The notes beneath the pieces were generated by a model. The model saw only the letters and a list, made by a program, of their open reading frames with translations. It made no database searches and was not told where the DNA came from. Shown here piece by piece: positions 5,924 to 23,310 of a stretch of DNA of 35,276 nucleotides. Position numbers and translations under genes: made by a program. Source of the DNA: BD1-7 clade bacterium (lineage in GTDB: Bacteria > Pseudomonadota > Gammaproteobacteria > Pseudomonadales > DT-91); the NCBI GenBank assembly GCA_902705835.1, contig CACSIN010000008.1, forward strand, positions 42,508 through 77,783. The letters run 5' to 3'. Each line of letters begins with the position of its first letter. Position 1 is the stretch's first letter.

Positions 5924-7063
5924 TTATTGCTGCTTTTTTGTATGACGACGATACGCCATAAGAAACTGCTCGGCTGTATTTTGGCTATTATGCTTGCGAA
6001 GCCAGCCTTGGATTGTAGAAACACGCTTTTGAGCCTGCTCGGGGTTTTCTATCAGATTTACAATGTCATCACATATTTTCGATGCAAGCTCTTGTTTGCT
6101 TTGATTAGCTTCGCGTGGAACACCAATAAGCATATCAGCAAGCCAACCTACTTGAGTTCCTACAGGGATTAACCCTTGAGTGACTGCTTCTGCGACAGCA
6201 ACGCCTTGAGATTCAAACCATGAGGTTTGTATTATCATATCATTTTGGGCGATGGTCTTTCGTGTGTCTTGTTGATTCAAAAGTCCATGAAAACTGATCT
6301 TGTCACTGACCTCTGCTGTTTTTGCCAGCAGCTGTATTTGACCATTGAGTGTATCAAAACCAAGCTGTGACATAGTAAAGGTAACCGAACGCACTGTTAA
6401 TTGAGTGGCGATTACAATGAGAAGCTCAAGATCTTTGACGGTATTAATGGAGCCGATATGTAGGATGCGGATAGAGCGGCTTTGTCGATTTTTCAGATCG
6501 ATTGGAGGATTAAGTGACCAGAAGTTCGAATCCAATCCAAGAGGAATGATGGAAGGCGATTTATCTTCTGGGAGTTGAATTTGATTTTTCAGGTACTCTG
6601 ATCCAACTGATAGGCTGTCCGCTGAAGCTAGACTGATTCGATTGAGAAAACGACCTCGCAGGTGAATAGATCCACCGTAGTTAATGTGTTTTATATCGAC
6701 CAATTCACCGCCGCAGATACTGGCAAGCAATGGAGTTTGGTAGCGGGTTGAAATGAGTTTGCCCAGAATCGTCGGATACCCAAGCCAGAAGCTGTGTACG
6801 ATATCGGGGCTGAACTTTAATCGTCGTATAACATTTATAACGTATTTGATCGAAGAAAATAACGAGAAGAGCTCTACGCCGTTTAGCGTAATTACGTCAC
6901 AGTTGGCAAGTCGATAGTGACGGCAGACATCATATTGCTGCAACGCAATAATGACGACCCGATGATGTTTTCCAAGCTGCTCAAATAAACTGATTAATAC
7001 CGGGATTTGTTTGTTTGTATCGATTTCGTCGACACCGCCAGGCACAACGACAAGAATGTTCAT
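5924..7063 (-). CDS. Glycosyltransferase family 4 protein
   Basis: 379 residues, full length for GT4. The N-terminal Rossmann domain starts MNILVVVPGGVDE; the C-terminal domain begins near SIRILHIGSINTVKDLELL (~208), and the donor-binding E-x7-E motif is present as ESQGVAVAE (Glu284 and Glu292). It is a retaining, GT-B-fold sugar transferase expected to act at the cytoplasmic face of the membrane. Its ATG overlaps the stop of the upstream methyltransferase gene (ATGA at 7060-7063), placing it as the last intact gene of the GT9-methyltransferase-GT4 operon. Sugar and acceptor are unknown. Confidence 0.9.
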   Translation of the reverse strand: MNILVVVPGGVDEIDTNKQIPVLISLFEQLGKHHRVVIIALQQYDVCRHYRLANCDVITLNGVELFSLFSSIKYVINVIRRLKFSPDIVHSFWLGYPTILGKLISTRYQTPLLASICGGELVDIKHINYGGSIHLRGRFLNRISLASADSLSVGSEYLKNQIQLPEDKSPSIIPLGLDSNFWSLNPPIDLKNRQSRSIRILHIGSINTVKDLELLIVIATQLTVRSVTFTMSQLGFDTLNGQIQLLAKTAEVSDKISFHGLLNQQDTRKTIAQNDMIIQTSWFESQGVAVAEAVTQGLIPVGTQVGWLADMLIGVPREANQSKQELASKICDDIVNLIENPEQAQKRVSTIQGWLRKHNSQNTAEQFLMAYRRHTKKQQ

Positions 7064-7980
7064 AATTCCGGAGACGTTTTCGCCATTGTTTTTGTAATAC
7101 GGGCAAGACCCAATAAACGTAAACGAATATCCAAGAAAGGAAAAAACTTACTCGCGACTAGTTTCAACATTGAACGTGTTTCCCGATAGGGTGAAAGTCG
7201 AAGACCAAGGGATTGTAGTTCTCTGACGCCCTGGCGAGATAGATAGCCTTTTGTCTGATTAACAATATTCATTTCTACGCCATTGTTCTGGAAGAAACGT
7301 GCAAGGCGTGCTTGAAACTGTTTATTGACCTTTTTAAAAGACGATGAGTAGGAAACGCCTAATGCGATTACTATTCCGTTATTTTTAGTCAGTTCGCGTA
7401 CACGCTGAAAAGTCTGAGGTGGATTTCTAAAGAACGGCAAACCATTGTTAAAGATAACCACATCAAACGTGTTTTCTGAGAATATCCGTAGATCGTCTAT
7501 GTCAGTTTGGATCGACAGCCATTCTTCCCGGTACCGAGTTGAGTTTTTTAATCCATTAACCTCGTCAATAAAGTAGTCGATAGCCACTACATCGTGACCC
7601 CATTTAACAAGGTGATGCGTAAGCCAACTGTTCCATGGGCCAATCTCTAGAATACGCTTTCTGGGGGCGTTTTTGAGAAGGCGCGCGATGGCTCGAAAAT
7701 CATCTTGTCTAGGACGCCATTCTTTTTGTTCGGCTGTACCCTCACGGATAAACGGTAGGCTGTCATAATGAGAAATTCGCATCTCTGGTCTATCAAGCTT
7801 TTGATCCTGCTGAAGCAGCAGCGAAATAGTTTTAACTTGTTCTTCTTTGGCTTTTTCTAAGAGAATCAGAACGCCTTGTTCTTCGTAAAACTGCTGTAAA
7901 CATCTACTGCACTGACGCTTTGGTGACAAAATTCTTTGACAACAAGGGCTGTATAATTCCATAGCGCTGTTAGCCACCAT
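7060..7980 (-). CDS. Class I SAM methyltransferase with N-terminal zinc-ribbon-like segment
   Basis: 306 residues. The N-terminus carries CC at 13-14 and C-x2-C at 24-27, a Trm112-like mini zinc ribbon common in methyltransferases of glycan clusters. SAM motif I is ILEIGPWNSWLTHHL (~110-124), unusual in having G-P-W-N-S instead of G-x-G-x-G, followed by VVAIDYF. A KEWRPRQ segment ahead of motif I resembles KEWQVRQ in the methyltransferase encoded at 10087-10884. The frame overlaps the GT9 gene by 11 bp; the ATG at 7962 (MELYSPCC) is an equally good start and fits the usual beginning of such zinc ribbons. It probably methylates a glycan or lipid-linked intermediate. Confidence 0.78.
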   Translation of the reverse strand: MVANSAMELYSPCCQRILSPKRQCSRCLQQFYEEQGVLILLEKAKEEQVKTISLLLQQDQKLDRPEMRISHYDSLPFIREGTAEQKEWRPRQDDFRAIARLLKNAPRKRILEIGPWNSWLTHHLVKWGHDVVAIDYFIDEVNGLKNSTRYREEWLSIQTDIDDLRIFSENTFDVVIFNNGLPFFRNPPQTFQRVRELTKNNGIVIALGVSYSSSFKKVNKQFQARLARFFQNNGVEMNIVNQTKGYLSRQGVRELQSLGLRLSPYRETRSMLKLVASKFFPFLDIRLRLLGLARITKTMAKTSPEL

Positions 7981-9031
7981 TTGTTTGCGCGGCTGTTAGC
8001 GCAGTGTACTTTGCCAATACCATTGGCGGAGTAATTCGAGTCATACAATAGTTATCGCCGCGTTCGCATGTGGGTTGCATGCAATCCCCGCAAGAGAGAT
8101 CCGATGATGAGAAAAAATCGACCTGCTTGCCCAATGGCTGTGTCCAGTCGGCACGCGTAGATCCGAGCATTGCGATGGTTTTTACCCCAGTAGTCCAAGC
8201 CATGTGCATCAAGCCTGAATCTTCTGATAGCATGAATTCTGCTTTTCGTACTATCTCGAAAGCTTCAGTTTCTGAGGTCATATCCAATAGATTAATAACG
8301 CTATTGGGGAGTGCTTGCTGCACAATGTTGACCGCGTTGCCAATGCGCTCACTGTGACCCAGAAACACAAACTGAGTAGCGTCGTTGATGTTTTTTAGCC
8401 ATAGCTTGGCAAATGCAATGTAGTTCTCCGCAGGCCAGTTTCTGTTTTCATAAGCGCCTGCTGGATTCAGGATGACGTACTTTTCGCCCCGCCAACCATG
8501 AGCCGTGAGTAGATCATTGCAGTTTCCTAGGAAGCGAGCCTGGTAATCGGTATTCAGTTCAACTGGAGTGATACCCACTGCGTTGATGGTTTTTCGGTAC
8601 CTTTCGCCAGCGGGTAACGGGCTGTATTTGTCGAATTCTGTATACGGTTTTTTTCCTAATAGGTAACGAGTAATACGGCTGATTTTATTATTTTGTAGAT
8701 CTAATACTACGTCGTAATTTCGAAGTAGTAGATAGGGAATTTTTGCTAGTGAAAATACAAATCGTTTTTTGGTGTTAAAGCCGCCGCCAAGTTTAATGAC
8801 ATTGTCAAACAAGCCGATATGTTCAGCCAAGTGGCTGTAGATATCGCACACGACAAGATCAATCTCGACATCGCTGCCTAGCTGAGCCCTAAGACTGTTA
8901 ATATAGGGGAAGGTAGCAATAAGGTCGCCAAAGCAGTTATGTCGCATAACGAGAATGCGTTTGGGCTGGTCATTGATCTGAGAGGGTGCCCATGGGCTGC
9001 ACGCTATCGCAGCCTGCATATTCTTGGTCAT
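7970..9031 (-). CDS. Glycosyltransferase family 9 (heptosyltransferase-like)
   Basis: 353 residues with the GT9 layout: an N-terminal RILVMRHNCFGDLIATFP nucleotide-fold start (~24), VILNPAGAYENRNWP heading the second Rossmann domain, the conserved DSGLMHMAW donor-site motif (~272), and a Cys-containing tail (CGDCMQPTC, CMTRITP) typical of WaaF/WaaC relatives. It is an inverting GT-B enzyme of the ADP-heptose:LPS heptosyltransferase superfamily, though neighbours do not show a core-LPS locus, so the donor may differ. First gene of a three-gene overlapping operon; a 114 bp gap separates it from the GNAT gene upstream, so it may have its own promoter. Confidence 0.88.
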   Translation of the reverse strand: MTKNMQAAIACSPWAPSQINDQPKRILVMRHNCFGDLIATFPYINSLRAQLGSDVEIDLVVCDIYSHLAEHIGLFDNVIKLGGGFNTKKRFVFSLAKIPYLLLRNYDVVLDLQNNKISRITRYLLGKKPYTEFDKYSPLPAGERYRKTINAVGITPVELNTDYQARFLGNCNDLLTAHGWRGEKYVILNPAGAYENRNWPAENYIAFAKLWLKNINDATQFVFLGHSERIGNAVNIVQQALPNSVINLLDMTSETEAFEIVRKAEFMLSEDSGLMHMAWTTGVKTIAMLGSTRADWTQPLGKQVDFFSSSDLSCGDCMQPTCERGDNYCMTRITPPMVLAKYTALTAAQTNGG

Positions 9032-9126
9032 TTTTTGAACCTGCGTAAAGGTTGGGCTTTGTTTACTTTTATCAACTTGAAATATTGTAATAGGATTGTA
9101 TCAAGTCAAAACCTCGCTTGAATATC

Positions 9127-9156
9127 ATACATTCTTAATTTCGTATCAGAATGTAT
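9127..9156 (-). terminator. Hairpin spanning the stop codon of the GNAT gene
   Basis: Nine-base-pair perfect inverted repeat (ATACATTCT and AGAATGTAT) with a 12 nt loop, overlapping the TGA at 9146-9148. No U-run follows, so this is a weak terminator or a processing/stability hairpin between the GNAT gene and the GT9 operon. Confidence 0.35.
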
Positions 9157-10090
9157 CCAAGTCACCATAGGTGAATTGCATTTTTTCTAATGGAATAATG
9201 TCAGTGAAGTTCTTGCCACCGGTTTCCCACGAGTCATGAGAAACATAGTGTCTTGAAAATATTTTATCGAGAAAGCAATCGGGGCTGCACTGAAAACGGA
9301 TTTCTTGTATGCCAAGTAAACGACACAAGCGTTGCAAAGCCTTGAGTAGCTTTAGGATATTCGCTTCAGAGTTACGTTCTATATCACCGATCAGTAGGGC
9401 ACCGTCGATTTTCATCCAAATTTTGCAACCTGCAATTTGGTAAATATCACTGCCGAGTGCTCTTTTGTAGCGAAAGAAATCCTTGTTGCGATGCAGGCCC
9501 CCGTGCTCATCGTCTATGACTGAGCTGGCAAATACATTGGATGTTTGGCGGAATCGATTGAGAATCAAACGTTGATAGAGCGTGTAGGCATTGGCAGTTA
9601 AGGCAGAAATCTTTGAGGCGTGGCTCAGTGGCAATGTTGATACATGTATATGGTATCGCCTCATCGTCCCTGTTTTGGTCCACTTCAATTTTCGAAAATA
9701 GCACAAGCTGGATTTTTGGTTCGGCCACCCATAAACCATTGAGATACCTTGTTGTTTTATAAGCTCTTCCGTTTTCTTCCCAAGGTAGACGAACAAACCA
9801 CGGCCATTATGTTTTGGATGAGTCATGGCATCACACCCTTGAACAGCAAGTTGTGTCGTACCTTGTAACTCCAGAAGGAAAGGTATCGCACCATGATAAC
9901 CAATCGGGTAGTCATCGTTGTAGGCAAGGTATCCGATATATTTCACACCAAGATAATCTGTCGCGTATTTCTTTCTAAGAAACGTTTCATCAGCATTTGG
10001 ATTAAATACATCGCGAAACACGGTTACCACGTCATGAAAGTTCTTCTCAGTGACCCTTTCTATGCGATACGGACAGTTTTCATCATTCAT
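9146..10090 (-). CDS. GNAT family N-acetyltransferase
   Basis: 314 residues. The N-terminal ~150 residues form a GNAT domain: YRIERVTEKNFHDVVTVF, then strand beta 4 and the acetyl-CoA loop region around GCDAMTHPKHNGRGLFVYLG (H-x-G-R-G-L in place of Q/R-x-x-G-x-G/A), followed by VYGWPNQKS. This resembles the Acetyltransf_9/Eis-like subgroup, often seen in glycan clusters, where it acylates amino sugars. The C-terminal half is a second, diverged domain. The start overlaps the stop of the upstream methyltransferase gene by 4 bp (ATGA), showing tight coupling. The acyl donor and the amine acceptor are not determinable. Confidence 0.8.
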   Translation of the reverse strand: MNDENCPYRIERVTEKNFHDVVTVFRDVFNPNADETFLRKKYATDYLGVKYIGYLAYNDDYPIGYHGAIPFLLELQGTTQLAVQGCDAMTHPKHNGRGLFVYLGKKTEELIKQQGISMVYGWPNQKSSLCYFRKLKWTKTGTMRRYHIHVSTLPLSHASKISALTANAYTLYQRLILNRFRQTSNVFASSVIDDEHGGLHRNKDFFRYKRALGSDIYQIAGCKIWMKIDGALLIGDIERNSEANILKLLKALQRLCRLLGIQEIRFQCSPDCFLDKIFSRHYVSHDSWETGGKNFTDIIPLEKMQFTYGDLDTF

Positions 10091-10884
10091 GGTTTAGGTT
10101 CGATTTTTTGGATTTTTACCCATATGAACGGAGATGGAGGTAAATTGCAGGGTTGCTGGTCACCCTGTTTGGGATCGTAAAGATAATCTGGCTGATAACG
10201 TGCTAATGCTTCGAGGCTATGGTGAAAATAATGGTCTGACATTGCCTCACAGTCGATGGATTTATAGTAGCTCTCGCTGCGCTGCTGAGCGCCAGCCAGT
10301 GAATTTTCAGGATAAAACGGCGAATCAATGATATGAATTTCCCCGTTTTCAGCTAATAAATCGAGGCAGACCTGCATGATTTCATCGAAATCGGGAAAGT
10401 ACTGAACCATGCAGTTCATCACGATAACGTCAAAGCTGCCAGACAGGCATGGCTTATCCAGCAGATTGGCAAAACAAAAGTACAAATTTTGTTGATCGAA
10501 AATTCGTTTCGCCTGCATGAGCTCCAACATGTTGATGTCCATGGCGACTACACGAGCATTGGGTAAGGCGGCCAACTTTGCGCTAAACCAGCCGTTCCCA
10601 CAGCCAAGGTCCAAGATCACTTTGTGGTCTGTGAGCTGTGTGTTGGCATAATTCAGGAAGCGCTGGGTTGAGCCTTGCCGCACCTGCCATTCCTTAGCGT
10701 GCGGGCCATCTTTTGGATATTCGGGTAGTGCATGTACCTGTTTATCGCTCAAAATCCGCTTTTCGGATTGACGTGCAGACGTGTAGTGTTTTTCGAACAG
10801 ATTGGTTTCAATGTTTTGGTAGTAATCAACACCGGCTTTGTTGCCCGCAGGTTGCCGTTGAAAGTACTGAGTGAATGTTGTCAT
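10087..10884 (-). CDS. Class I SAM methyltransferase
   Basis: 265 residues. Motif I is LDLGCGNGWFSAKLA (~92-106), followed by VVAMDIN and, as motif IV region, IVMNCMVQYFPD, a combination typical of Methyltransf_11/25 enzymes acting on small molecules or sugars. A KEWQVRQ stretch before motif I recalls KEWRPRQ in the methyltransferase at 7060-7980, so the two may handle related substrates. It lies 3 bp after the radical SAM/SPASM gene and overlaps the GNAT gene, in the middle of the deacetylase-radical SAM-methyltransferase-GNAT operon. Confidence 0.85.
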   Translation of the reverse strand: MTTFTQYFQRQPAGNKAGVDYYQNIETNLFEKHYTSARQSEKRILSDKQVHALPEYPKDGPHAKEWQVRQGSTQRFLNYANTQLTDHKVILDLGCGNGWFSAKLAALPNARVVAMDINMLELMQAKRIFDQQNLYFCFANLLDKPCLSGSFDVIVMNCMVQYFPDFDEIMQVCLDLLAENGEIHIIDSPFYPENSLAGAQQRSESYYKSIDCEAMSDHYFHHSLEALARYQPDYLYDPKQGDQQPCNLPPSPFIWVKIQKIEPKP

Positions 10885-10887
10885 AGG

Positions 10888-11916
10888 TTAACTCAATGCG
10901 CTGCAGCAGCGTGAACATGCCGGCAGTAAGCCCCCGGCTTTTTGAATGTCGCTACGAAGCAGTCCAAATGCGTCGGAATTCCATATCTCAGATAGATTCT
11001 GCTCATTGAGATTGCCAACCTCAACGTTGTAGCAACGACCGTGGGCCGGTATTACTGATCCGTCAGACTTAATCATCATGGTGGAAAATATGTCACTGCA
11101 GGCACTGCCTATAAATTGTTCCGGTTGTTGATAGAAAGTTTGTAGCCGTTCAAAGGTCGATAGGTCAGGAGAAAACGAAATCCGGTCGGCATAGTCTGCC
11201 TTTTTTAGGGTGTTGATTTCTTGCCATAGATGCGACAAATTCATGCGTTTAATATCCAGCACTTCCATGTTCGATTCTGTCGCGAAATAGCGGTCTCCCC
11301 AGATGGTATTGTGGGTATCAGCGACCGATTGCGGGGTGAAGTTGGTATGCATAAACCCGAGTTGTTTTATCGGAAACTGTGCAAAGAAATCAGCAAATGA
11401 TTTTAGGTCACCAATATTCCATTCGGTGATGACGCAAAAAATGGAGACGTCGGGAGCATTTTTTTGACTGAACAATGCTTCCATGCCATCAATGGCCCTT
11501 TGAAATGAAAAACGATGACCTCGAATATCATTGTGAATGTCTTTTGTCCCATCGAGGGAAATAAAAACATCATCAACATTATTGTCACACAGTACTTGTG
11601 CTTTTTCCGGCAGTTTTAAACCATTCGTCGTCACCGCTGTGGATAAGTTGTATTGTTTTGCGAGTGCCAAAGATTCATCGAAATGGCGATATATCAGGGG
11701 CTCTGTGAAGGCGTAACCGAGTCGGGTATCTGGGTAGTATTTTGCCGTTTGTTCACAGATCCTTTGAAACAGATCCAGTGGCATGTCCAGGGGGCGGGTC
11801 CCTGTGAGGTTTTGAGCGAAATTCGTAGTCTTCGTTTTTGTTCCAACGTCACACATCTTGCAGTGCAGATTGCACGTATTGTTGACGCCTAGAACCAGCC
11901 ACTTTGGTGCATACAT
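10888..11916 (-). CDS. Radical SAM protein with SPASM-type C-terminus
   Basis: 342 residues from ATG at 11914-11916. The radical SAM cluster motif is CNLHCKMC (Cys15, 19, 22), with ISLDGTKDIHNDIRG as the conserved SAM-binding strand region. The C-terminal third holds further cysteines (CSDIF, GRCY, CSRCC) in a shortened SPASM/twitch pattern that would bind one or two auxiliary Fe-S clusters. Such enzymes modify peptides or act on sugars and lipid-linked glycans; within this operon either is possible. The frame stays open upstream with plausible coding (NQHYFPKHL before the Met), so a rare start between 11917 and the end of the deacetylase gene is conceivable. Confidence 0.85.
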   Translation of the reverse strand: MYAPKWLVLGVNNTCNLHCKMCDVGTKTKTTNFAQNLTGTRPLDMPLDLFQRICEQTAKYYPDTRLGYAFTEPLIYRHFDESLALAKQYNLSTAVTTNGLKLPEKAQVLCDNNVDDVFISLDGTKDIHNDIRGHRFSFQRAIDGMEALFSQKNAPDVSIFCVITEWNIGDLKSFADFFAQFPIKQLGFMHTNFTPQSVADTHNTIWGDRYFATESNMEVLDIKRMNLSHLWQEINTLKKADYADRISFSPDLSTFERLQTFYQQPEQFIGSACSDIFSTMMIKSDGSVIPAHGRCYNVEVGNLNEQNLSEIWNSDAFGLLRSDIQKAGGLLPACSRCCSALS

Positions 11917-11962
11917 AAGATGTTTGGGAAAGTAATGTTGGTTGAGAGATTTAGCGAGCCCG

Positions 11963-13042
11963 TTAATAGTAAGTCCCTTTCAAAATAGCGGCCATTTGTT
12001 CTGTAACGCCAATATAGGGGTTGATGCCTATGCGCTCGACCAAGTGAGGATTTAAATAATCATCATCAAAAAGGTAATCAACAGCAAGGAGTTTGTTATA
12101 CCCAAGCTGGTTGCACATTTTCAAAACCTCTCGGGTATACAAACCGCAAGGAAACGCCAAAGCACTAATTGAGGTGCCTGTTGCTGCTTCGAGAAATTGT
12201 CGCGTGTGTTCAAGCTCTTCCTCAGCGGAGGAAAGATCAATTGCATCTAGATTGTTGTGGTAGTAACCATGGGAGCCGATAGTAGCCCATGGTGAGGCAG
12301 ATAGCTCTCGGATCTCTGAGGTTGTCATCTGCAACCAATAATCCTGTGTCTGCTCCAGTATTGCGGGATCAATCGCCGCAAAGAGAGAGGGCATCATGTC
12401 ATGTTTGAAACGCCACCCTGAATCTTTACAGAATTGCTTGAGTGTTTTACCGGAACAACGATCAACAAAGCGGCCCTTTCTGTCTTTTACAAATATCAAG
12501 CCCGAAAATGCGAGCTCTTCGGAGCTATGGTGAGAGACAAGATCAACCAAATCCGCCCAAAGGATGTCATAGCCAGCATCACGAATACCGGTGATAAAGA
12601 AACTGGCTGGGCACTCGTATTTTTCTAGAAGAGGGAGTGCATGAGTTAGATTGTTTCTATAACCATCATCGAAGGTTATCGTTATCGTTAACTTTTCTGG
12701 GTGCGCCGGTGCGTCGAAGTATTCATCCAGAGATACTGTATGGAAGTGCTCTTTGAAGTAAGCAAGATGCTGTTCAAACATGCCCTTACTGATAACGCGT
12801 GTATTCAGCCGGTTGCCGCCAACGTCATCGATTCCGTGGTAGAGGAGCATTCGCTTTCCCGGACGGTTTTTAAGGAGCAACGGAGAAAGGCCAAGGCTGG
12901 TAGCTGAGCGGTTTATGGTTCTACGCAGTTGGTAACGAATGAGATTTCGAACGCTTGATAGACGTTGGAATGTTTTGTTTTGAACGTCCATGGAGTGATT
13001 CAATAAATTCGTCGTTCGATTGATGGCTTCTGCCGAAGCCAT
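11963..13042 (-). CDS. Polysaccharide deacetylase (NodB homology domain, CE4)
   Basis: 359 residues. The NodB signature is complete: TFDDGY at 123-128 (catalytic base and metal Asp), SHGYYH at 257-262 giving the H-x3-H metal ligands, and FPCG at 297-300 for motif 3. Expected reaction: metal-dependent removal of N- or O-acetyl groups from a polysaccharide. The first ~60 residues are basic without a clear signal peptide, so action may be cytoplasmic or at the inner membrane; ATG codon 18 (MDVQNKTF) is an alternative start. It heads the leftward operon through the GNAT gene; the radical SAM gene starts 46 bp downstream. Confidence 0.88.
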   Translation of the reverse strand: MASAEAINRTTNLLNHSMDVQNKTFQRLSSVRNLIRYQLRRTINRSATSLGLSPLLLKNRPGKRMLLYHGIDDVGGNRLNTRVISKGMFEQHLAYFKEHFHTVSLDEYFDAPAHPEKLTITITFDDGYRNNLTHALPLLEKYECPASFFITGIRDAGYDILWADLVDLVSHHSSEELAFSGLIFVKDRKGRFVDRCSGKTLKQFCKDSGWRFKHDMMPSLFAAIDPAILEQTQDYWLQMTTSEIRELSASPWATIGSHGYYHNNLDAIDLSSAEEELEHTRQFLEAATGTSISALAFPCGLYTREVLKMCNQLGYNKLLAVDYLFDDDYLNPHLVERIGINPYIGVTEQMAAILKGTYY

Positions 13043-13483
13043 GCGTCAGCAGGCAACAGTCAATGTCGATTAAATATACTATTTTTTGGATTTAGCGTGC
13101 CAGTGTTAATCAGGATATATCTATATCGTTATATAGAGTTTTTATTGAACCTAAACTCAATAAGCAACTGTGGTACTGCTATAAAATAAGAAATTCATCT
13201 GTTGATAATAAAGGTCGCCTCGATCTCGCCTGCGTCAGGAACGATAAAGAAAACGTATGAAGGCAATCTTAGTTAATTGCTGCGCTTAGTTTAAGCCTTT
13301 CAAAGGTCTTCTCGATTTAACAACACCTTTCTTCCGAGTTGTTTTGGTAAATTTTTTAGAATCAGGCTGCGTCGAAAATCGTGATATCAACGTTCGATTA
13401 CTCAGGGTGTATAAACCAATGGGTACTGAATATGATGAATGGTGCCGTTACCGGATCTCCGTTGGATCAGTAACGGCAGGCTG
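13043..13483. other. Intergenic region with a post-gene hairpin
   Basis: About 440 bp without a supportable gene, between the stop of the giant G8 lipoprotein gene and the start of the deacetylase operon, both on the minus strand. It should hold the deacetylase operon promoter, but I see no convincing -35/-10 pair. The only clear structure is a nine-base-pair inverted repeat at 13443-13478, listed separately. Confidence 0.5.
13443..13478 (-). terminator. Stem-loop after the G8 lipoprotein gene
   Basis: Perfect nine-base-pair stem (TGCCGTTAC and GTAACGGCA) with an 18 nt loop, beginning five bases after the TAG at 13484-13486 on the minus strand. No U-tract follows. It is placed where a terminator or 3'-stabilising hairpin is expected. 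Confidence 0.4.
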
Positions 13484-16400
13484 CTATTGATCAGCGCAGG
13501 CAAGCGGTGTCAGAGGATACTTGAAACCGCCGGCTGGAGGGTAAACACCTCTCGGATTCACGGGAGACGAAGGTGGTGTTGTTAAACAGGTATACGGAAA
13601 ATTTTCGGTAATCGAGACAGGGAGGCCGAGAATCGGTAAAAAGCGGTAGCTGATGACATTGTTGGTCTCTTGTGTCATTCCTTGAAGCGGTGAACCGTCC
13701 CTTGGCGGCGCATCGCTACCTGTCGGCATCGGCAGGCCATTCGCTTGCTGGGTTGGCGTGGCATAGACAAATTTATATTGATTCCAGTTTTTGTACTCTG
13801 CGCGTGTGATCGGTCGACTCGGTCTCGCATACCATTGACCGGATGCAGATACACCATTGCCTGTCGATCCATCTAACGAGAAACTCTTTTCAGAAATTTT
13901 GGTGACTACCCAAGTGCCATTGGCATTCGTATTGCCAGTGACCCCTGATATTGCAACGGAAGAACCTGTTGCAGGTGCTGTGCCGGATGTCTTGATGACA
14001 ATCGGCGATGTATTGGAGGCCGATGTGATGGCTGCATGTGCAGGTAGTGATGGTGTTTCAATGCCTGCTTTTGTCAGATCAACCAAGTACGCTGCACAGC
14101 CTTTGTCGCTACACGTCACTAGATCTGTAGCGGTTGGTACGCCGGCTTTGACGAGACACGCTGTATTTAGCGCATCCTCTACGCTGCCAGTGTCACTGAA
14201 GGTTTTCACATTCTTAATGCGTTTCACCTGACTCTTGAAGGTAGTATTGCTATCGCTGCATGTCCCATAAGGCGTATTTAACTGCATGATTGGCTTATCC
14301 TCAATCATGTAAAAATACAGCATGTTGTTTGCCTCATCGTAGTAATAGGTCTGCTGTTGAATAAAATCGGCAGTCGTTATGCTGCCTGCGAGTAGTTGTG
14401 TGTAGGGCTTTTCAAAATCGTCAAAACTCGAAGCCAGGCTGAGCATACTGCCGCCTGAATACGTTTGTGGTGCCCCTTTGTATGGTTGCGGCGGTGGTTT
14501 GTTCTGGCCACGAGCCACGCAGTCTTTCCAGCGTTGATCGGGTGCGTTTCCGTCTTGGTTAGAGAAGAAGGTGCTGTCACACGATGTGGCCACAGGCCCT
14601 GGCGGATTGAAGTTGGGTGGCCAGGCTCCGAGGTAAGGCTGCCCCCATTGACGTCGTATTCGATAAAGTTTGATCTCTTCAGGGTGCGATAGAGGCTGGG
14701 AAACGGCAATACGGTTAATAAAATACTCGCCCGTTTGTTTTACGGCAGGGTCTGTATAGCTAAATACCAGGCGCGGCATAAAGGGTTTCCCGTGTTGGCC
14801 AGCTGGTTTGTGTTCGACACCGTTAAGCCCCGTTATTGTGTAGCCCATACGGTCCATAACAAACGGTTCATAGATAGGCTTCTGGCCACGCCCATTGAGG
14901 AACAAAGAAGGGTATTCCGTATCGCCATATGCAGGCATATCACGGGTAATTCTCACTCTGAAATCTGCATCAGGATTTGTCGCGGATTCGATGTTAAGTG
15001 TTGCGTATTTGTGTGGGCTCATCAGTGACGATTGGCGGAAGTTATTTGGGCCACGCGCATGCGGTTCATCAACGGTATAGTCCGTTGCATAGTAATCAAT
15101 GCTATTGAGTGACACCGGAACATAATCCGGGCTGACCTGACCTTCATTTGCACCGTTAGCATGGATGACTTTCAGGCCTGACAAACGACTGTCTTTATCC
15201 AATATCACTGTGGTTTTATCACCATCATTAAAGGCGCCCATGTTGACGGCCTCTGTGTATACCAGATGTTTGAGATCGGTGTTATCCCAAATACTGTTCT
15301 TGATGTACTGTGTTGGGGGCACTGTTTGAGCGTTAGATTGAATCCAGCCGGTGGCGGAATCGCCGGGGTAGCCCGTGTAGGTATTGGGGCTAGGTGTGCC
15401 GTGTAATTGTCCTTGGGAAGCATAAGTGCTGATCAGGTCGATGTCTTTTTTGGTCAGAAGCCGTGCTTCAGGTGTACTTGGGTAGATACCGGTCGGATCA
15501 AAACGGAAGTTAACGAAACGATTCGATTCGATCCGTGCTGGCCCGTCATAGTAACTGTAGCCCTGAAGATTCATGACTGAACCTGCAAACGGATTGGGGT
15601 AGTTACCCCATCCACCTACGCTCTTTAACTCAACGTCAGTGCACTCGGCCTGCATCGAAAGGCTGTTGTATTGCGCCATTCCACCTTGGGTATAAGTACC
15701 GCTAGTTTTTCCGTTGGAATTTTCCAGGGTGAATGAAACAGTGCCATCCGCACTGGAGGTGATGCTGCTAACGTGCTGGGCACTGTTAGCTGCGGTATTG
15801 CCTTCTACACCGTTGACGGTTACTTTGGAGCCCGCTTCAGGGGCTGGCCCTTCAACTGTCAGTACGATGGGGTTGGTGTTGGTTGCATCTGTAACTCGTT
15901 GGATACAGCCTGTTGGGTAGCGCTCGACGTTGTTGCGAGTCATGCCTGCGAAGACATTACGATGGGCAAGATCCCAATAGCCGACGTAATTACCTTCTGG
16001 CCCACCTCCGCCCGCAAGTAATACACCATAGGGATTTGTCGCAAAACGGTTATTGTGCAGTACTAGGAAGATCGAACGCCCCCAGAATCCGCGGTTGCGT
16101 GACCGGGTAATCGTATTGTTATTCAAAATCAGTACCGGTGGTTGTGGCGTTGTTTGCCAGGTGCCACCGCGGGTATAGCTAGCGTTAGCAACCGAACCCT
16201 GAAGTGCAAACTTGTTCGAATCGCTTTCAAAACCAGGGGCAGGGTAAGTGATCTTCCATTGGCCATTTGTGTTGGTATTTCCCTCAACACCAGAGATGGT
16301 GATCACGTCATTGTCTGCCAGCGGATTAGCCGTAACCGCATCTGATGTGGTTGTGATGACAATAGGGTTGGATTGCATCGTTGCAATATCACCTTGCAGC

Positions 16401-18811
16401 TGCCACTGCCCAGTATCCGTGGTGAAAGCTGAAGCGCTGGATGATCCCTTAAGGGTGAAGCCGCTATTGCTTGAATCTATAACGGTCCAAGTGCCATCAG
16501 CAGCGGTTCCAGTCTTCGAAATAACCACACTAGCGTTATCAGACATCACGGGGATACCGTTAGGGATTTTAATCATAATCGGCTCCCCTGCCAGTTTGTT
16601 GACTTTCAGAATCGGCATGGTTTGCAAAGTCCATTTCGCATCGCTGGATTTGGAATAGTTGTTGGGTTTCGTTGCCGGATCAAAGGAGAAACTGTAGGGC
16701 GCGTTGCTGTTATTGACGATTTTCCCAGACCAGGGACCTGCGCCCACCGCGTCTGTTCCCGATATCGTGACTGAAAAAGGCTGCGGGAAATGACTCGGAA
16801 TTTTTACCGAACTGGTTATGGTGGTACCTGTGTCGGAAGCGTTACTTACTGGATAGGTCGTGTTATCAAAAATAGGGTAGGGGTTCGATGCGTTGTTGAT
16901 ACCATCCGGTGCGGTATCCAAACCGTTATAGCAGCCGTGGGCGCGATTACCGGTAAATTCCGGATACGCTGTGCTTGGCTGTGCGCCCTGCATCAATAGC
17001 CAATAACCGCGGCCTTGTGCCTGGCAACCTGCGACTGAGTTGTTAACGAAAGTGTTATTGATATTGGTGATCCAGAACCCGCCCGGATGATATGTATCTG
17101 GGCCTGGGTTACTACCAGCGGCGTTGGCACCGGATAACGACGTATCAGTAATGTTATTGATCGTGTACCAGCTTGCCGATGCCTGTGATGCTTGCAAATA
17201 GTCACCGTTCCAATAGGTATTGCCGCCGACGAGAGGATAGGTATAGGTTGATTGTGCTGCCATGGTTCCAGCAACATGATTTCGCATAAAAGCGTTACCG
17301 GTGATATTTACGCCGTCTTCGAGATACACGCCTTGGCCGACGGTTCTGACACACACATTGTTGTAGAATCTGCTTTCGCCTGTTTCATGCACCACAAAGC
17401 ACTTGTTGTAACTATGGTGTACAGAAACATCCTGAACCAAGACAGAATCGCCTGTGTCCTTCAAGTGATGAAGGTGTATGGGATAACGCCCGACAAAAGG
17501 TTGGCCGAACTTCTCAAACTCAACACCCACAAGATCGATAGTTGCAGCAGTATCTCCATGCATCACGACAAGATGGCCGCCCATAAAATCATCCGTGGCG
17601 ACTGAACTGAATTTGATATTGCGTGATAGCAAGGCAACTTCAGCGCGCTCATCAATGCCGAAATTGCGGGTGTGGTCATCGTAGAAGCTTTTTGCCTGAT
17701 TACTGACATCAATCGCGTTGCCACCGGTGACAACTGATTGACGGGTACCGGTACTGTAAAAGCCAGGCGTGGGTGCAAGGCCACCATAGTGATAGTGTTT
17801 TAGCGGCGTGGCTTGTGTTGACGTGCAGTTTTGCCCGCCGTTCAGTGTGATCTCACTGACTGTGGCTGGTGCACCGGGAAGCCCAGTTTCCGGATTGTCG
17901 ACCGTTTTTATACTGCAAATTTGGACGATTTCAGTCTGGTGTGAAGTAAAACTGGTTGTAGCGACTGAAATCCAATCCTTCGGTTGCCAGTCGACTGTTG
18001 TTGCCAGTGTGAGGGTTGTTTCAGAATTGGACGTGGGAACCGGCGAGCTGACATTCTCTGAATCATCGAAGCGAGACGGGCCGGCTGGTTTGGCAAGATA
18101 CGTCCAGCTTCGGGTGCCACTGAGAGTATTAATAAATGAGGGTTTACTTGCAGGGTCGTTCGCAGTGCCATCAGGTGTGGCAGACAACCCCTTAGCCCCA
18201 TACAATTTTAAGTTGCCCCCCGCCATTACCGTGATATCACGCGCATTTTGCTGTTCGTTCGACTGCGTAACAATGGGGCTGGAGCCATTTGCCGTAGGTG
18301 CTTTGGATGCTGAGATATCACCTGCCATTATGATATCTATCTGACCTTGAATAGGAGCGTCGACCGAACCACTTTGCAGGGTTCCCCCGTTTTTTATCAG
18401 AAAAGAAGAGGCATGCAAGCTCATCTGATTGCCCACGCCCGGATCAACTAATGTCAGTACACCGGAAGCCCCAATCACAACGGGTATCAGTGGTGCGTTT
18501 GGGGTGAGAGCTGCCGTGTCACTCGCCGATATTGTCACGTTACTGCACGGCGTGGATGCGTCGATAAAGAGTGCAGCAGGCACCTTTTTATTCGGCGAAG
18601 CCGCATCGATTTCTTTTAAACACGCCGAATTACCTAGTGCGTTAGTTAAGCTTGTAGAGGTGGCTGGCATCTCGAAATCGGCTGGAGCCTTCTCTTTCGT
18701 GCCTGTAACACTTTGACTGCATCCGTGCGATACCAGTAATGCACCAAGAAGCAGAATGACTCTGCCTCGATACGAATCGGGCTTTGCCGTGCGGTGGCTC
18801 GTAATACTCAT
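13484..18811 (-). CDS. Giant G8/CEMIP-like parallel-beta-helix lipoprotein with FCCH-like repeats
   Basis: 1775 residues. The start is fixed by a strong Shine-Dalgarno (AAGGAGG, ending five bases before ATG). The N-terminus has a basic region, a hydrophobic core (VILLLGALLVS) and Cys31 in SHGC, a loose lipobox. Residues ~75-170 match the end of a G8 domain (FLIKNGGTLQSGS, P-x-x-G-x-x-x-I). Residues ~190-500 follow the CEMIP/TMEM2 pattern: GGNLKLYG, SWTYLA, VDWQPKDWISVATTS, GRYPIHLHHL (441-450), SVHHSYNKCFVVH (463-475), YLEDG. Beta-sandwich repeats with a G-V-x-G-N-T-x-x-N-G-x-W pattern interrupt the rest (~658-730, 731-808, 813-887, 974-1048, 1597-1664). Vertebrate relatives bind or degrade hyaluronan. 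I infer a cell-surface polysaccharide-binding or -cleaving protein; catalysis is unproven. Confidence 0.75.
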   Translation of the reverse strand: MSITSHRTAKPDSYRGRVILLLGALLVSHGCSQSVTGTKEKAPADFEMPATSTSLTNALGNSACLKEIDAASPNKKVPAALFIDASTPCSNVTISASDTAALTPNAPLIPVVIGASGVLTLVDPGVGNQMSLHASSFLIKNGGTLQSGSVDAPIQGQIDIIMAGDISASKAPTANGSSPIVTQSNEQQNARDITVMAGGNLKLYGAKGLSATPDGTANDPASKPSFINTLSGTRSWTYLAKPAGPSRFDDSENVSSPVPTSNSETTLTLATTVDWQPKDWISVATTSFTSHQTEIVQICSIKTVDNPETGLPGAPATVSEITLNGGQNCTSTQATPLKHYHYGGLAPTPGFYSTGTRQSVVTGGNAIDVSNQAKSFYDDHTRNFGIDERAEVALLSRNIKFSSVATDDFMGGHLVVMHGDTAATIDLVGVEFEKFGQPFVGRYPIHLHHLKDTGDSVLVQDVSVHHSYNKCFVVHETGESRFYNNVCVRTVGQGVYLEDGVNITGNAFMRNHVAGTMAAQSTYTYPLVGGNTYWNGDYLQASQASASWYTINNITDTSLSGANAAGSNPGPDTYHPGGFWITNINNTFVNNSVAGCQAQGRGYWLLMQGAQPSTAYPEFTGNRAHGCYNGLDTAPDGINNASNPYPIFDNTTYPVSNASDTGTTITSSVKIPSHFPQPFSVTISGTDAVGAGPWSGKIVNNSNAPYSFSFDPATKPNNYSKSSDAKWTLQTMPILKVNKLAGEPIMIKIPNGIPVMSDNASVVISKTGTAADGTWTVIDSSNSGFTLKGSSSASAFTTDTGQWQLQGDIATMQSNPIVITTTSDAVTANPLADNDVITISGVEGNTNTNGQWKITYPAPGFESDSNKFALQGSVANASYTRGGTWQTTPQPPVLILNNNTITRSRNRGFWGRSIFLVLHNNRFATNPYGVLLAGGGGPEGNYVGYWDLAHRNVFAGMTRNNVERYPTGCIQRVTDATNTNPIVLTVEGPAPEAGSKVTVNGVEGNTAANSAQHVSSITSSADGTVSFTLENSNGKTSGTYTQGGMAQYNSLSMQAECTDVELKSVGGWGNYPNPFAGSVMNLQGYSYYDGPARIESNRFVNFRFDPTGIYPSTPEARLLTKKDIDLISTYASQGQLHGTPSPNTYTGYPGDSATGWIQSNAQTVPPTQYIKNSIWDNTDLKHLVYTEAVNMGAFNDGDKTTVILDKDSRLSGLKVIHANGANEGQVSPDYVPVSLNSIDYYATDYTVDEPHARGPNNFRQSSLMSPHKYATLNIESATNPDADFRVRITRDMPAYGDTEYPSLFLNGRGQKPIYEPFVMDRMGYTITGLNGVEHKPAGQHGKPFMPRLVFSYTDPAVKQTGEYFINRIAVSQPLSHPEEIKLYRIRRQWGQPYLGAWPPNFNPPGPVATSCDSTFFSNQDGNAPDQRWKDCVARGQNKPPPQPYKGAPQTYSGGSMLSLASSFDDFEKPYTQLLAGSITTADFIQQQTYYYDEANNMLYFYMIEDKPIMQLNTPYGTCSDSNTTFKSQVKRIKNVKTFSDTGSVEDALNTACLVKAGVPTATDLVTCSDKGCAAYLVDLTKAGIETPSLPAHAAITSASNTSPIVIKTSGTAPATGSSVAISGVTGNTNANGTWVVTKISEKSFSLDGSTGNGVSASGQWYARPSRPITRAEYKNWNQYKFVYATPTQQANGLPMPTGSDAPPRDGSPLQGMTQETNNVISYRFLPILGLPVSITENFPYTCLTTPPSSPVNPRGVYPPAGGFKYPLTPLACADQ

Positions 18812-19234
18812 AAATCACCTCCTTGTGTGATCTGAAATGCCACTAAGGCATACAGTTATTTTGCACAAAGAGTAATCAGCAATCCGAGTAAAATCTACAC
18901 AAGTAGTGCTTTTTTCTCGGATTGGTCTTATTCACTGATGAGGCTGGTCGTTCATTCGATAGCGCCCAATGATCTGGCGTTTGTGAATAATAGATTTCCT
19001 TGGCTCGACGTTACTCGTCAATACGTAATTCAAATCTATCTGATAGGAAAAGTTAAAATCGTTAGGTGCAGTTAAGGTTGAAGTCGGTATTCATAAAATA
19101 CACAATCCACGTTTTTGTGATGTGGCAGAAAACCCGTTGCACAGCGACTAACAGTTTGTCGTTACTCCCATTGTGGCAGCGCATAGCCGATAGTATGATT
19201 TCCAAAATGTTCACAACTGGAAAAGGAATTTCCG
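18812..19234. other. Divergent intergenic region between the G8 gene and the membrane-protein cassette
   Basis: About 420 bp. It must hold the promoters of the leftward G8 gene and the rightward 19235 gene. Seen: the Shine-Dalgarno of the G8 gene next to position 18820, an inverted repeat at 18880-18924 (listed separately), and AAGGAA seven bases before the ATG at 19235. No coding region is supported. Confidence 0.5.
18880..18924. promoter_or_regulatory. Nine-base-pair inverted repeat upstream of the G8 gene
   Basis: CAATCCGAG at 18880-18888 and CTCGGATTG at 18916-18924 form a perfect inverted repeat separated by 27 A/T-rich bases, about 70-110 bp upstream of the G8 lipoprotein start. It could be a regulator half-site pair or a leader hairpin. 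The function is inferred only from position. Confidence 0.35.
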
Positions 19235-19780
19235 ATGTCAGGCTACGATGTATCGTATTTGCCCTACAACTTACCCGCCAATTCTTCAGCACAGGCGCTG
19301 CGTCTAGCTGAGATTCTTCAAATTGAACCTGCTGTAGTTGCAGGTATATCAGAACACGATGTAACTGCCATATCTAGTGTCATCCTCTATCGGCATCTCG
19401 ATCGATTTCAAAAGATGGAGGTGATGTCGCAAATACATGCGATAGAGAATCGTCGTTTGGCAGGAAAATTACAGTCTAAAGTGGTCGATACCTTGGTGAA
19501 TCCTCAGTGGGGTATTTGGTCGCTGTCTAATGAGGAGTTGCTGGCTGACCAGGCTTTCCATACTGCAGTGGATGAATTAGCGAGCTTGTTAGGATTAAGC
19601 GCGTCAGCTCTCGGGGGCAAGGATCTTATCGAGGAGCTGTGGAAGCAGCGCAAAGCAGGAAAAGCCTCCATAGCCGTTATTGTTATTTGGGGAGCGGTTT
19701 ACTTTAACAAACGCGAGCTGATCAAGGCCAATACAGAGGTCAGTAACCGATCACAACTCCAATCCTCACCGCATTATTAA
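19235..19780 (+). CDS. Hypothetical protein with C-terminal membrane segment (181 aa)
   Basis: Not recognised. ATG preceded by AAAGGAA. The protein opens MSGYDVSYLPYNLP and is mainly predicted helical, with many short amphipathic stretches (residues ~18-130). A hydrophobic stretch, ASIAVIVIWGAVYF, near residues 143-156 could anchor it, leaving a short polar tail. It contains no cysteine and no catalytic motif that I can identify. It is the first gene of a three-gene plus-strand set: the 68-residue membrane protein starts 5 bp after its stop, and the secreted protein overlaps that one. Membership of one envelope-associated complex is plausible but inferred. Confidence 0.7.
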   Translation: MSGYDVSYLPYNLPANSSAQALRLAEILQIEPAVVAGISEHDVTAISSVILYRHLDRFQKMEVMSQIHAIENRRLAGKLQSKVVDTLVNPQWGIWSLSNEELLADQAFHTAVDELASLLGLSASALGGKDLIEELWKQRKAGKASIAVIVIWGAVYFNKRELIKANTEVSNRSQLQSSPHY

Positions 19781-19784
19781 TCAT

Positions 19785-19991
19785 ATGAACGTTAAAGCAC
19801 TTATTGTTTATGCAGTGATCTTTATCGCTGCATTCACGCAATGGCAGTCTTTAAGCGAGTCGACCAAAGATGTCGCGTTTTATCTAATCTTTGCATTGAT
19901 GGTGATGCAAGGTAATTGGTTGATGTGGCGGATTAGAAGGCTTGAGGAAAAACTCCAAACAAAAGACACCGATCAACATGCTCAGTGGTAG
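19785..19991 (+). CDS. Small two-helix inner-membrane protein (68 aa)
   Basis: Two hydrophobic segments, ALIVYAVIFIAAFTQW (~5-20) and VAFYLIFALMVMQGNWLMW (~30-48), followed by a basic, charged cytoplasmic-looking tail (RIRRLEEKLQ) with coiled-coil character. The size and layout resemble holin-like or accessory subunits, but no family is recognised. It begins 5 bp after the stop of the preceding gene and its 3' end overlaps the start of the next by 14 bp, so the three genes are very likely one operon. Confidence 0.65.
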   Translation: MNVKALIVYAVIFIAAFTQWQSLSESTKDVAFYLIFALMVMQGNWLMWRIRRLEEKLQTKDTDQHAQW

Positions 19992-21610: not shown

Positions 21611-22453
21611 TCAATTTGGCCGTTCGTCAGCGGCAAAACTTTGAACCCTCTCATCAATATCGTCACAATCAAAGCCAATAAAATCTACATATTCGCTAAG
21701 CATCTCGCAGGTTTCGTGAAAAGCTTTAATGCGATTTTTGTCATTGCTGTCTAAATTAGGCCCTTTAACCGTAAACAGAATGTTTTTTTGGTTTGGCAGC
21801 AAATCTCCTCGCTGAAGTCGTCTTAAACGACCTTCCCAAGTAGATGCATGATCGTATATCCGGCCTGCTTCTTCGTGTCCCAAATAGAAGGGCTTGATGA
21901 CCTTATTTACCCGGCCATTAACTCTCTGTATGAAAGGAAAGGTAATCTTCTCACCGTCTCTTTCTATAGCGTCTTTGCGGAACGGATTTCTTAACTTTAT
22001 ACCGCTGACTAGAGTATTAACGCGCCGCTCCATTTCTAGCTCAAACTGAGGCTTGGCTACAAAATCATGCATTACGAAGTGCTGATACTTTTGGTTTAAG
22101 GTCTTTTTGGGAGATTCAACGAAGCAAGCTGCTGTATCACTGAAGGTTAAAATCGCCTCTCGAGGGAAACAAACAGACTTAAAGATATCTTCGACATCAA
22201 CGCCTTTATTCCGAGTAGATAAATCTCGTATCCGTTTCAACTCGGCTTCCAAACCTTTAATTGACCGCAGGTATGTATTTTTGTTGAGGTCAGTAAAAAA
22301 ATTCGTATAGCGCTTAGACTTGGTTAGCTGAAATTTAAAATCGAAATATCCTGTTGCAGGGCAGCAAAGGACTATACCTACATTTGCAAATTCACCTGCT
22401 TCTGGGTATGGAATAAAACGAACTACAGAATACATGCATGCATATCTAGTCAT
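21611..22453 (-). CDS. DUF3037 domain protein
   Basis: 280 residues opening with the DUF3037 pattern: YACMYSVVRFIPYPEAGEFANVGIVL, i.e. conserved V-R-x-x-P-x-x-x-E-x-x-N-V-G. The remaining ~220 residues are polar and without motifs I recognise. Its ATG overlaps the TGA/TAA region of the HipA_2 gene upstream by 4 bp, showing translational coupling. DUF3037 and HipA_2-type kinases are often adjacent in bacterial genomes, and a function as a partner or substrate of the kinase is inferred; the biochemical role is unknown. Confidence 0.8.
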   Translation of the reverse strand: MTRYACMYSVVRFIPYPEAGEFANVGIVLCCPATGYFDFKFQLTKSKRYTNFFTDLNKNTYLRSIKGLEAELKRIRDLSTRNKGVDVEDIFKSVCFPREAILTFSDTAACFVESPKKTLNQKYQHFVMHDFVAKPQFELEMERRVNTLVSGIKLRNPFRKDAIERDGEKITFPFIQRVNGRVNKVIKPFYLGHEEAGRIYDHASTWEGRLRRLQRGDLLPNQKNILFTVKGPNLDSNDKNRIKAFHETCEMLSEYVDFIGFDCDDIDERVQSFAADERPN

Positions 22454-23202
22454 TCATTCACCTCCCAAAAGCAATCTGATTCATATTCGCTAAGTATGGC
22501 TCTTATGTTATTAGGATCAAAGCCGATTAAATTTGTTTCTTCGAGGTCGGAGTACAACCAAGATTTAGGCATAAGGTCTAAAACCTTATCAAGTACTAAA
22601 AGTGCCTTTGAAAAGCGCTCACTATACCTTGCCTTCCGTTCAAGATCGAGAGCTATTGATGGCCACTCTTCACGAAAAACGTGTGTCGAAAAGAAGTAAT
22701 CATCGTTTAATTTGTTGTCAAATGCGTTGTTGTGATCAATGATAGACAAATTTTTTGTTACGGAATTCCATATTAAATTCGGATTATAGTCAGTTCGGTC
22801 ATTATTCTTAATCCAATGGTCGAACATCAGAATATCCCGTCGAATTTCAATATTAATCTCTGGTCTAGTACTGAGTTCCAACCAGCTAACCCCTTCGACT
22901 TTCTTAGAGCCCCAGCATATGCCCGGGCCTATTATCTGGAATTGTGTGGGAAGGTATCTATGAAATTCTGGGTCGACTTCGACAAGCCCATAAGGCGCGA
23001 TAGGTAAGCCTAGGGCGGAAGCCAAATGTGCGCAAATCCATTCATAGATTAGGCATTCTCGTGCAGTGTTACGCCCCTTAACAAAGTAAGTACTATTGTT
23101 AATCCCTGTACAAATAAATGGCTGAGTCACTCCTTGAATTGCTCGTCGGTGAATCGTCTCTATAAGAACTGGCATTAACCTTAAATACTCCATGGTTGCC
23201 AC
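22450..23202 (-). CDS. HipA-like kinase family protein (HipA_2 type)
   Basis: 250 residues, much shorter than classical HipA (~440), lacking the N-terminal subdomain. Kinase elements: YFVKG (39-43) with the putative ATP-binding Lys42, FDHWIKNNDRTDYNPNLI (127-144) as catalytic loop with Asp and Asn, and IIDHNNAF (154-161) as the metal-binding Asp. The start is GTG at 23202 or ATG at 23193 (MEYLRLMPVL); neither has a strong ribosome-binding site. It overlaps the DUF3037 gene by 4 bp. No HipB-like antitoxin is seen, so this is not a standard HipBA toxin-antitoxin pair. Confidence 0.8.
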   Translation of the reverse strand: MATMEYLRLMPVLIETIHRRAIQGVTQPFICTGINNSTYFVKGRNTARECLIYEWICAHLASALGLPIAPYGLVEVDPEFHRYLPTQFQIIGPGICWGSKKVEGVSWLELSTRPEINIEIRRDILMFDHWIKNNDRTDYNPNLIWNSVTKNLSIIDHNNAFDNKLNDDYFFSTHVFREEWPSIALDLERKARYSERFSKALLVLDKVLDLMPKSWLYSDLEETNLIGFDPNNIRAILSEYESDCFWEVNE

Positions 23203-23310
23203 GGTAAATGGAATTTCATCCTACTAAATTTGTTAGACCTAGTAAAACAACAAGCAAGGATCAAGAGGCTGCTTTTGTCGTAGCAGTAATATATGTGGAC
23301 GAATTGTGGA

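Follow-up and report, generated by a model that had tools for sequence, protein, structure and literature searches.

A repeat-bearing bacterial member of the G8-CEMIP superfamily and the residue set that it has in common with human TMEM2

The presence of a G8 domain and a CEMIP beta-helix in a protein of a BD1-7 clade bacterium raises the question of what such a protein does and on which residues its function might depend. For the animal relative TMEM2, both the enzyme status and the place of the active site are openly disputed (PMC10206443 and the cited parts of PMC10276149 and PMC10474455). In one study, hyaluronidase activity could not be detected for the pure human TMEM2 ectodomain, hyaluronan binding was not seen in two formats, and the structure was published with no assigned active site (PMC10206443). 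In the parts of the sources cited here, human TMEM2 is described as inactive and mouse TMEM2 as active (PMC10276149), an intrinsic activity is reported (PMC10474455), the dispute over the enzyme status is stated (PMC12254123), and a 2026 review calls it unclear whether CEMIP itself cleaves hyaluronan (PMC13113925). Neither a function of bacterial G8-CEMIP proteins nor the residue set described below was found in the literature searched (titles and abstract starts).

The gene and its kinship with TMEM2

The window, that is the whole stretch of 35,276 nucleotides analysed here, contains, at exactly 13484..18811 on the minus strand, one intact ORF with an ATG start, in the place where the initial annotation had located a CEMIP-like lipoprotein; the strings quoted there are found at residues 441-450 (GRYPIHLHHL), 463-468 (SVHHSY) and 496-500 (YLEDG). 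The gene and its main parts are as follows:

13484..18811, minus strand: whole gene, 1775 aa, G8 / CEMIP beta-helix with FCCH-like inserts
18814..18824, minus strand: Shine-Dalgarno-like sequence AAGGAGGTGAT just 5' of the ATG, read from the sequence
18719..18811, minus strand: signal-peptide-like N-terminus with a probable but atypical lipobox ending in Cys31, by eye
18191..18547, minus strand: G8 domain, residues 89-207 (Pfam PF10162)
16985..17584, minus strand: CEMIP beta-helix core, residues 410-609 (Pfam PF24606, match to 8c6i, low-confidence model)
15893..16141, minus strand: beta-helix resumes, residues 891-973 (weak Pfam Beta_helix match at 895-937; aligns to the homologue L045)
13487..15472, minus strand: C-terminal region, residues 1114-1775, partly common to L045

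Chance or artefact is ruled out by the length and intactness of the ORF and by its conservation, at 92-93% identity from end to end, in a second genome, that of BD1-7 clade SB11_3 (Gammaproteobacteria, Cellvibrionales, Spongiibacteraceae). Within its own genome (5.06 Mb), the window protein matches itself alone and is the sole match for G8 and for CEMIP_beta-hel. No sigma-70-like promoter was found in 18500-19900. The 149-nt leader (18812-18960, minus strand) folds better than shuffled sequences (z -3.33); the idea of a structured leader was dropped, as its pairing is not conserved in SB11_3 (judged by eye) and Rfam gave zero matches within the window. The protein had also been described as a predicted outer-membrane lipoprotein. 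Cys31 follows a hydrophobic stretch, but by the lipobox rule the box V-S-H-G-C31, identical in the SB11_3 orthologue, is atypical, whereas L045, a relative that lacks the repeats, has the canonical lipobox LILAGC. To judge from its N-terminus, lipoprotein status is thus plausible, albeit not clean.

The proposed kinship with CEMIP and TMEM2 is supported by Pfam matches above the cut-offs for G8 (PF10162, 45.1 bits against 22.9, E 1.1e-11) and CEMIP_beta-hel (PF24606, 101.3 bits against 27.3, E 8.5e-29), and by a profile match to human TMEM2; the general Beta_helix family (PF13229) stays under its cut-off with 20.6 bits against 25.9. A phmmer search of the PDB with the window protein found human TMEM2 (8c6i) at 5.6e-13, and a 13-protein profile (built from the window protein, the orthologue in SB11_3, L045, two plasmid, four genome and four viral-contig proteins) found 8c6i with an E-value of 1.8e-121 as its sole match with E up to 1. 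The profile covers chain positions 47-168 and 336-922 of 8c6i, corresponding to G8 and beta-helix, and its alignment ends at 922, at the region of TMEM2 domain X and the C-terminal lectin-like domain. In TMEM2, G8 is a portion of the continuous beta-helix (PMC10206443). Further along the window protein, residues 891-960 align locally and weakly to 8c6i 686-755 (1.6 bits), and residues 1114-1775, searched alone, gave neither a Pfam match nor a PDB sequence match. Both TMEM2/CEMIP2 and the window protein would thus combine G8 with a right-handed parallel beta-helix core; the window protein differs in being bacterial, in carrying FCCH-like repeats in loops and in its unrecognised C-terminal region. 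CEMIP (KIAA1199/HYBID) itself lies outside our alignment, in which TMEM2 stands for the animal proteins.

A further difference concerns the lectin-like (GG) domain 1, which lies between G8 and the helix in animal CEMIP/TMEM2 and which the window protein lacks. Positions 169-335 of 8c6i have no counterpart in the 13-protein profile, and only about 67 residues separate the end of the G8 match (207) from W275 in the window protein. This domain contains R265, D273 and D286, which are reported to affect HA degradation (PMC10206443), as well as the H248/A303 pair (cited part of PMC10276149); with the domain, the counterparts of R265, D273 and D286 are missing as well. On sequence grounds, we assign the window protein to the G8-beta-helix superfamily (PF10162 plus PF24606), and because the lectin-like domain is missing, we do not count it as a strict orthologue of CEMIP/TMEM2.

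The expected beta-helix fold agrees with a beta-helix-like model and with the strong profile match to the solved 8c6i structure, but the protein's own model is of low confidence. The model of residues 340-655 has a mean pLDDT of 48.4 and a pTM of 0.54, with block means of 47-76 over model residues 81-180 and lower values elsewhere except 241-290; a model of residues 60-1200 (mean pLDDT 30.7) was unusable. These models were built with 8 and 9 alignment rows. Searched against the PDB with Foldseek, the 340-655 model had no match at E <= 0.001 (best 0.025). A VIA structure comparison gave 340 of 449 chains at Z >= 8, the best being the alginate lyase 6kfn, presumably a PL31 enzyme (Z 13.6, rmsd 4.0 over 193 residues), with which others within 1 Z are tied. 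The 50 matches listed comprise lyases, epimerases, hydrolases, fructotransferases, phage tailspikes, NosD and an adhesin, all of which we take to be beta-helix proteins. As 8c6i is not among the 50 matches listed by either Foldseek or VIA, it is the sequence that speaks for a fold related to that of TMEM2; the model appears to agree with a beta-helix and would add little to this.

The FCCH-like repeats and the distribution of the family

The second striking part of the protein is a set of FCCH-like repeats:

16616..16834, minus strand: repeat 1, residues 660-732 (repeat HMM)
16394..16606, minus strand: repeat 2, residues 736-806 (repeat HMM)
16148..16387, minus strand: repeat 3, residues 809-888, with a Pfam E1_FCCH stretch at 815-884
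15659..15892, minus strand: repeat 4, residues 974-1051 (repeat HMM)
13823..14026, minus strand: repeat 5, residues 1596-1663 (repeat HMM)

The name E1_FCCH (PF16190) stems from the ubiquitin E1, and one stretch of the window protein exceeds the curated cut-off in the protein search (32.6 bits against 29.5; 1 of the 5 repeats). In the genome search the family scored 22 bits, below the cut-off, and had no match in the SB11_3 genome (G004). The E-values of the repeat HMM are circular, as the HMM derives from these very repeats. Segments cut by eye were therefore also compared by pairwise BLAST (8 of the 10 possible pairs), which linked repeats 4 and 5 (3.7e-12), 3 and 5 (5.7e-9), 3 and 4 (1.2e-6), 2 and 5 (2.5e-6) and 1 and 2 (5.6e-4); the pairs 2/3 (0.15) and 1/3 (0.62) were non-significant and 1/5 gave no match. 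Repeat 1 is the weakest of the five. A hypothetical protein on the Planctopirus limnophila plasmid (NC_014149.1, 18263-18487) matches repeat 5 with 44-46%.

All five repeats that had been proposed to lie within the beta-helix were found, but four of them interrupt the helix region and the fifth is located in the C-terminal region. The idea of a beta-helix frame with inserted repeats is borne out by the comparison with L045 (genome G647, same class), a 1377-codon frame matching residues 136-497, 577-630, 895-965 and 1075-1276. L045 and the window protein share collinear stretches within 136-1276, and L045 is without the FCCH-like repeats. Because this homologue is otherwise collinear, the simplest reading is that the repeats were inserted into a beta-helix frame that was already there, the alternative being a loss in L045. 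In TMEM2 numbering (offset 82 from the chain length, supported because published loop borders fall between aligned strands), repeats 1-3 map to the interval from about 727 to about 768 and repeat 4 to that from about 839 to about 868, with anchors set by eye. Where such a helix usually has its active site, TMEM2 is obstructed by the loops 627-662 and 733-756 (PMC10206443), and the interval of repeats 1-3 spans loop 733-756.

When all frames of at least 150 aa in the family loci were collected, the repeat HMM matched 8 rows, consisting of the window protein, the SB11_3 orthologue and pieces of both; among the family proteins compared, the repeats are limited to these two, with no match in the Croceibacterium and Vitreoscilla plasmid proteins described below. 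A tree places the window protein, SB11_3 and L045 in one clade (support 96/94) with a long-branch warning, and the one animal fragment included has no settled position, with long branches. Full-length matches were found in 2 of the 56 relatives searched, the own genome counted, while PF24606 had matches in 11 genomes out of 390 from the order, 7 out of 369 from the class and 3 out of 398 from the phylum (own genome counted; these draws overlap and are not additive, and 1 of 14 control genomes matched each time). Between 3 and 6 CEMIP-like matches per genome were seen in G243 (6), G263 (5), G282 (3), G856 (3) and G879 (6), some of them pieces of one gene; some matches lie near each other on one contig, suggesting an expansion of the gene family in some lineages.

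Databases already name bacterial members as G8 domain-containing proteins. One of these, from a Croceibacterium atlanticum plasmid, has the same pair of G8 and CEMIP_beta-hel domains as the window protein, and both it and a Vitreoscilla filiformis plasmid protein (905 and 1029 aa, core identity 34% and 27%) carry the same invariant motif and are annotated by domain only. On the Croceibacterium plasmid (L058), two G8 domain genes flank a MarR regulator, with a TonB-dependent receptor and two small DUF6152 genes. CEMIP beta-helix proteins also occur on IMG/VR contigs classed as viral (L060-L064, L066 and L074), and among five ORFs of 905-1071 aa from this source, all five exceed the Pfam cut-off for CEMIP_beta-hel and four that for G8; L066 and L074 were detected through alignment only. 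The ORF preceding the gene on three of the contigs (464-630 aa) has no PHROG match. It is possible that these members are tail or depolymerase proteins, or that the contigs are misclassified bacterial ones. The five ORFs were not among the matches listed by phmmer with the full window protein; scans of IMG/VR returned few distant members plus re-finds, a genome-contig scan one relative and a phage collection scan zero relatives. Within the literature searched, the repeat-bearing form and the residue set in common with human TMEM2 both seem to be new.

An invariant histidine/glutamate set

Within the core, four polar residues and a fifth, less strictly conserved one stand out:

17573..17575, minus strand: H413, on the strand of the preceding coil, with a pLDDT of about 50 at most (32 of 35 rows)
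17468..17476, minus strand: HxH pair, H446 and H448, invariant in the alignment
17387..17389, minus strand: H475, invariant in the alignment
17318..17320, minus strand: E498, invariant in the alignment

In an alignment of 46 rows at up to 97% identity, several of them fragments, so that only rows reaching a column are counted, H446 (39/39), H448 (39/39), H475 (40/40) and E498 (41/41) never vary, nor do D387 (31/31), R397 (33/33) and Y443 (40/40), whereas R442 is found in 36 of 40 rows and H413 in 32 of 35 (Glu in two, Asn in one). At up to 70% identity (24 rows including human TMEM2, after rows with fewer than 60 filled columns were dropped), the counts are 23/23 for H446 and for H448, 24/24 for H475 and for E498, 16/16 for D387 and 18/18 for R397. 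A conserved polar set, as the initial annotation had expected for the cleft, is therefore borne out by 24 proteins no more than 70% identical. TMEM2 has the same invariant residues, namely H550, H552, H585, E608, D480 and R490 in its own numbering, and the HxH...H...E set is present in bacteria, on IMG/VR contigs and in human TMEM2. Two positions of the window protein deviate from the prevailing pattern: Q493, where most rows have His (by eye), and N502, where 37 of 41 have Glu. Because G436 (23/23), Y443 (23/23), G492 (24/24) and N506 (20/20) are equally invariant in the 70% set, invariance alone is no proof of catalysis; some of these conserved residues surely have a structural role, and going by the alignment, the His/Glu set could have one too.

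In the 340-655 model, strands 412-415, 445-448, 470-475 and 493-497 are spaced by 33, 25 and 23 residues, and E498 directly follows the last of them. This would fit the same strand of successive coils, with H446, H448, H475 and E498 as well as H413 on or beside it, a placement that we infer with low confidence because the models are poor (mean pLDDT 30.7 and 48.4). H446 and H448 alternate with hydrophobic residues and would therefore be expected to share one face, probably the outer one. PL31 hyaluronate lyases are parallel beta-helix enzymes with catalytic His/Tyr and Arg, according to the cited part of PMC12254123. Like the best, though tied, structural match 6kfn, PL31 lyases act on uronic polysaccharides. 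By analogy, H446/H448/H475, Y443 and R397 of the window protein would offer a His/Tyr plus Arg set of this type, although a PDB search with the window protein found no PL31 sequence match at E <= 10. Chondroitinase B (PL6), considered the most relevant example for TMEM2 (PMC10206443), is likewise a parallel beta-helix, but its own site consists of calcium and two Glu.

Based on the invariant His/Glu set, the TMEM2 kinship, the resemblance of the model to beta-helix enzymes and the position of repeats at the cleft loops, we propose with moderate confidence that the window protein is a glycan-acting surface protein of the G8-CEMIP superfamily with the His/Glu set as its centre. In this reading, the protein would be exported and probably lipid-anchored at the surface, and an extracellular polysaccharide chain would lie along the helix cleft. 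The functional centre would be the invariant His/Glu set, which together with H413 would be stacked over successive coils and would act as a metal site or an acid-base site to depolymerise the chain. The repeats, in loops bordering the cleft in TMEM2, might hold or position the substrate in lieu of the animal lectin-like domain.

The main rival to this reading, and in our estimation a somewhat unlikely one, is that the protein only binds, as an adhesin or glycan-binding scaffold without catalysis, in which a stiff beta-helix rod carries repeats that contact host or particle glycans. The several inserted repeats would suit such a role, the surface adhesin PfbA is among the structural matches of the model (Z 11.8), and the inactive human TMEM2 ectodomain also points this way; the same TMEM2 study, however, found no hyaluronan binding either (PMC10206443), and in our judgement, absolute conservation of a His/His/His/Glu set is seen more typically in catalytic or metal sites than in adhesins. 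Returning to a glycan-acting centre, we further put forward, tentatively and as a possibility more than an expectation, that the HxH...H...E set is the ancestral catalytic or metal centre of the whole CEMIP/TMEM2 family, with the lectin-like domain and the FCCH-like repeats as alternative substrate-holding modules added at different places round it and the TMEM2 cleft loops gating it.

Genomic context, substrate and implications

The initial annotation had noted a glycan locus alongside the gene, and this is indeed the case:

5924..13042, minus strand: co-directional downstream cluster coding for polysaccharide deacetylase, radical SAM-SPASM protein, methyltransferase, GNAT, GT9, methyltransferase and GT4

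Window positions 3906-19242 are syntenic with SB11_3 (L002) at about 92%, the deacetylase/GT9/GT4 cluster included; the left limit is the SB11_3 contig end, and right of 19242 short pieces alone match. To the left of the cluster, two B12-binding radical SAM proteins with methyltransferases around them are encoded (window 684-2132 and L068 16981-18516). On the other, variable side, positions 22450-33190 and L069 look like a defence and toxin-antitoxin island, which codes for a HipA-like kinase and a DUF3037 protein, a HicB-like antitoxin, two adjacent GmrSD-type proteins and, farther on, an N6 methylase.

As lyases of biofilm loci may do, the window protein might trim or release a polysaccharide of its own cell, namely the product of the adjacent cluster with its deacetylase and glycosyltransferases, which we consider improbable. 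The gene is the first of the syntenic co-directional cluster, no terminator-like site was found in the 441-bp gap between them (of little weight, as 0.4 would be expected by chance), and the own genome (G000) has no match for GH88, as would serve nutritional lyase pathways; SB11_3 and G647 gave none either, with GH88 present in 2 of the 5 genomes queried and in 3 of 14 controls. The length of the gap, however, argues against tight co-transcription, and it contains one promoter-like site (chance expectation 1.5); moreover, no flippase or polymerase family was found among the proteins scanned around the gene, and none of the three neighbour ORFs scanned at L045 (peptidase M23 and two release-factor-type proteins) is a glycan gene.

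A nutritional or invasive hyaluronidase or GAG depolymerase directed against the matrix of sponges or other animals, as a functional equivalent of CEMIP, appears very doubtful to us. Besides the CEMIP/TMEM2 kinship, it is favoured by the designation of SB11_3, which we take to be the same isolate as SB113, a BD1-7 clade member from the sponge Tethya among cholesterol-degrading isolates in the cited part of PMC5790920. The sponge origin is that of SB113, and both the missing lectin-like domain with its HA-related residues and the lack of a GH88 match in the own genome speak against a GAG depolymerase; a PL8 search found nothing but was uninformative, as the control failed too. Action on a host GAG and action on a self-made glycan are two answers to the question of the substrate, and both overlap with the glycan-acting reading. 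For the latter, the rhamnogalacturonan lyase gene near the family member L049, which also has PhoX as a neighbour, is a point in favour. Against it stand the dispute over the activity of TMEM2 itself, the location of the HA-degradation residues of animals in a domain that is missing here, the GH88 result, the lack of a reported activity for bacterial members in the literature searched and the non-carbohydrate neighbours of several members. In surveys covering few ORFs per member, these were acetyl-CoA synthetase and a beta-lactamase-family protein (L082), an MFS transporter, a TPS-domain protein and a metallo-lactamase-type protein (L083), MerR, TauD and a metal-dependent hydrolase (L051) and a PKD-domain protein (L052); the TonB-dependent receptor lies near the Croceibacterium plasmid member. 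Gene context does not fix the substrate. The likeliest candidate is an acidic or amino-sugar polysaccharide, whether it comes from an animal host, algae or the bacterium's own surface.

Taken together, the window protein is a real and correctly located feature that had largely been read correctly from the start. Its repeats in loops illustrate how a beta-helix protein may acquire new binding modules. The main value of the finding lies in a testable active-site nomination for animal CEMIP/TMEM2: diverse bacterial members without the lectin-like domain narrow the candidates to a handful of residues for mutation in mouse TMEM2 or human CEMIP, and the bacterial members themselves provide proteins for bench study.
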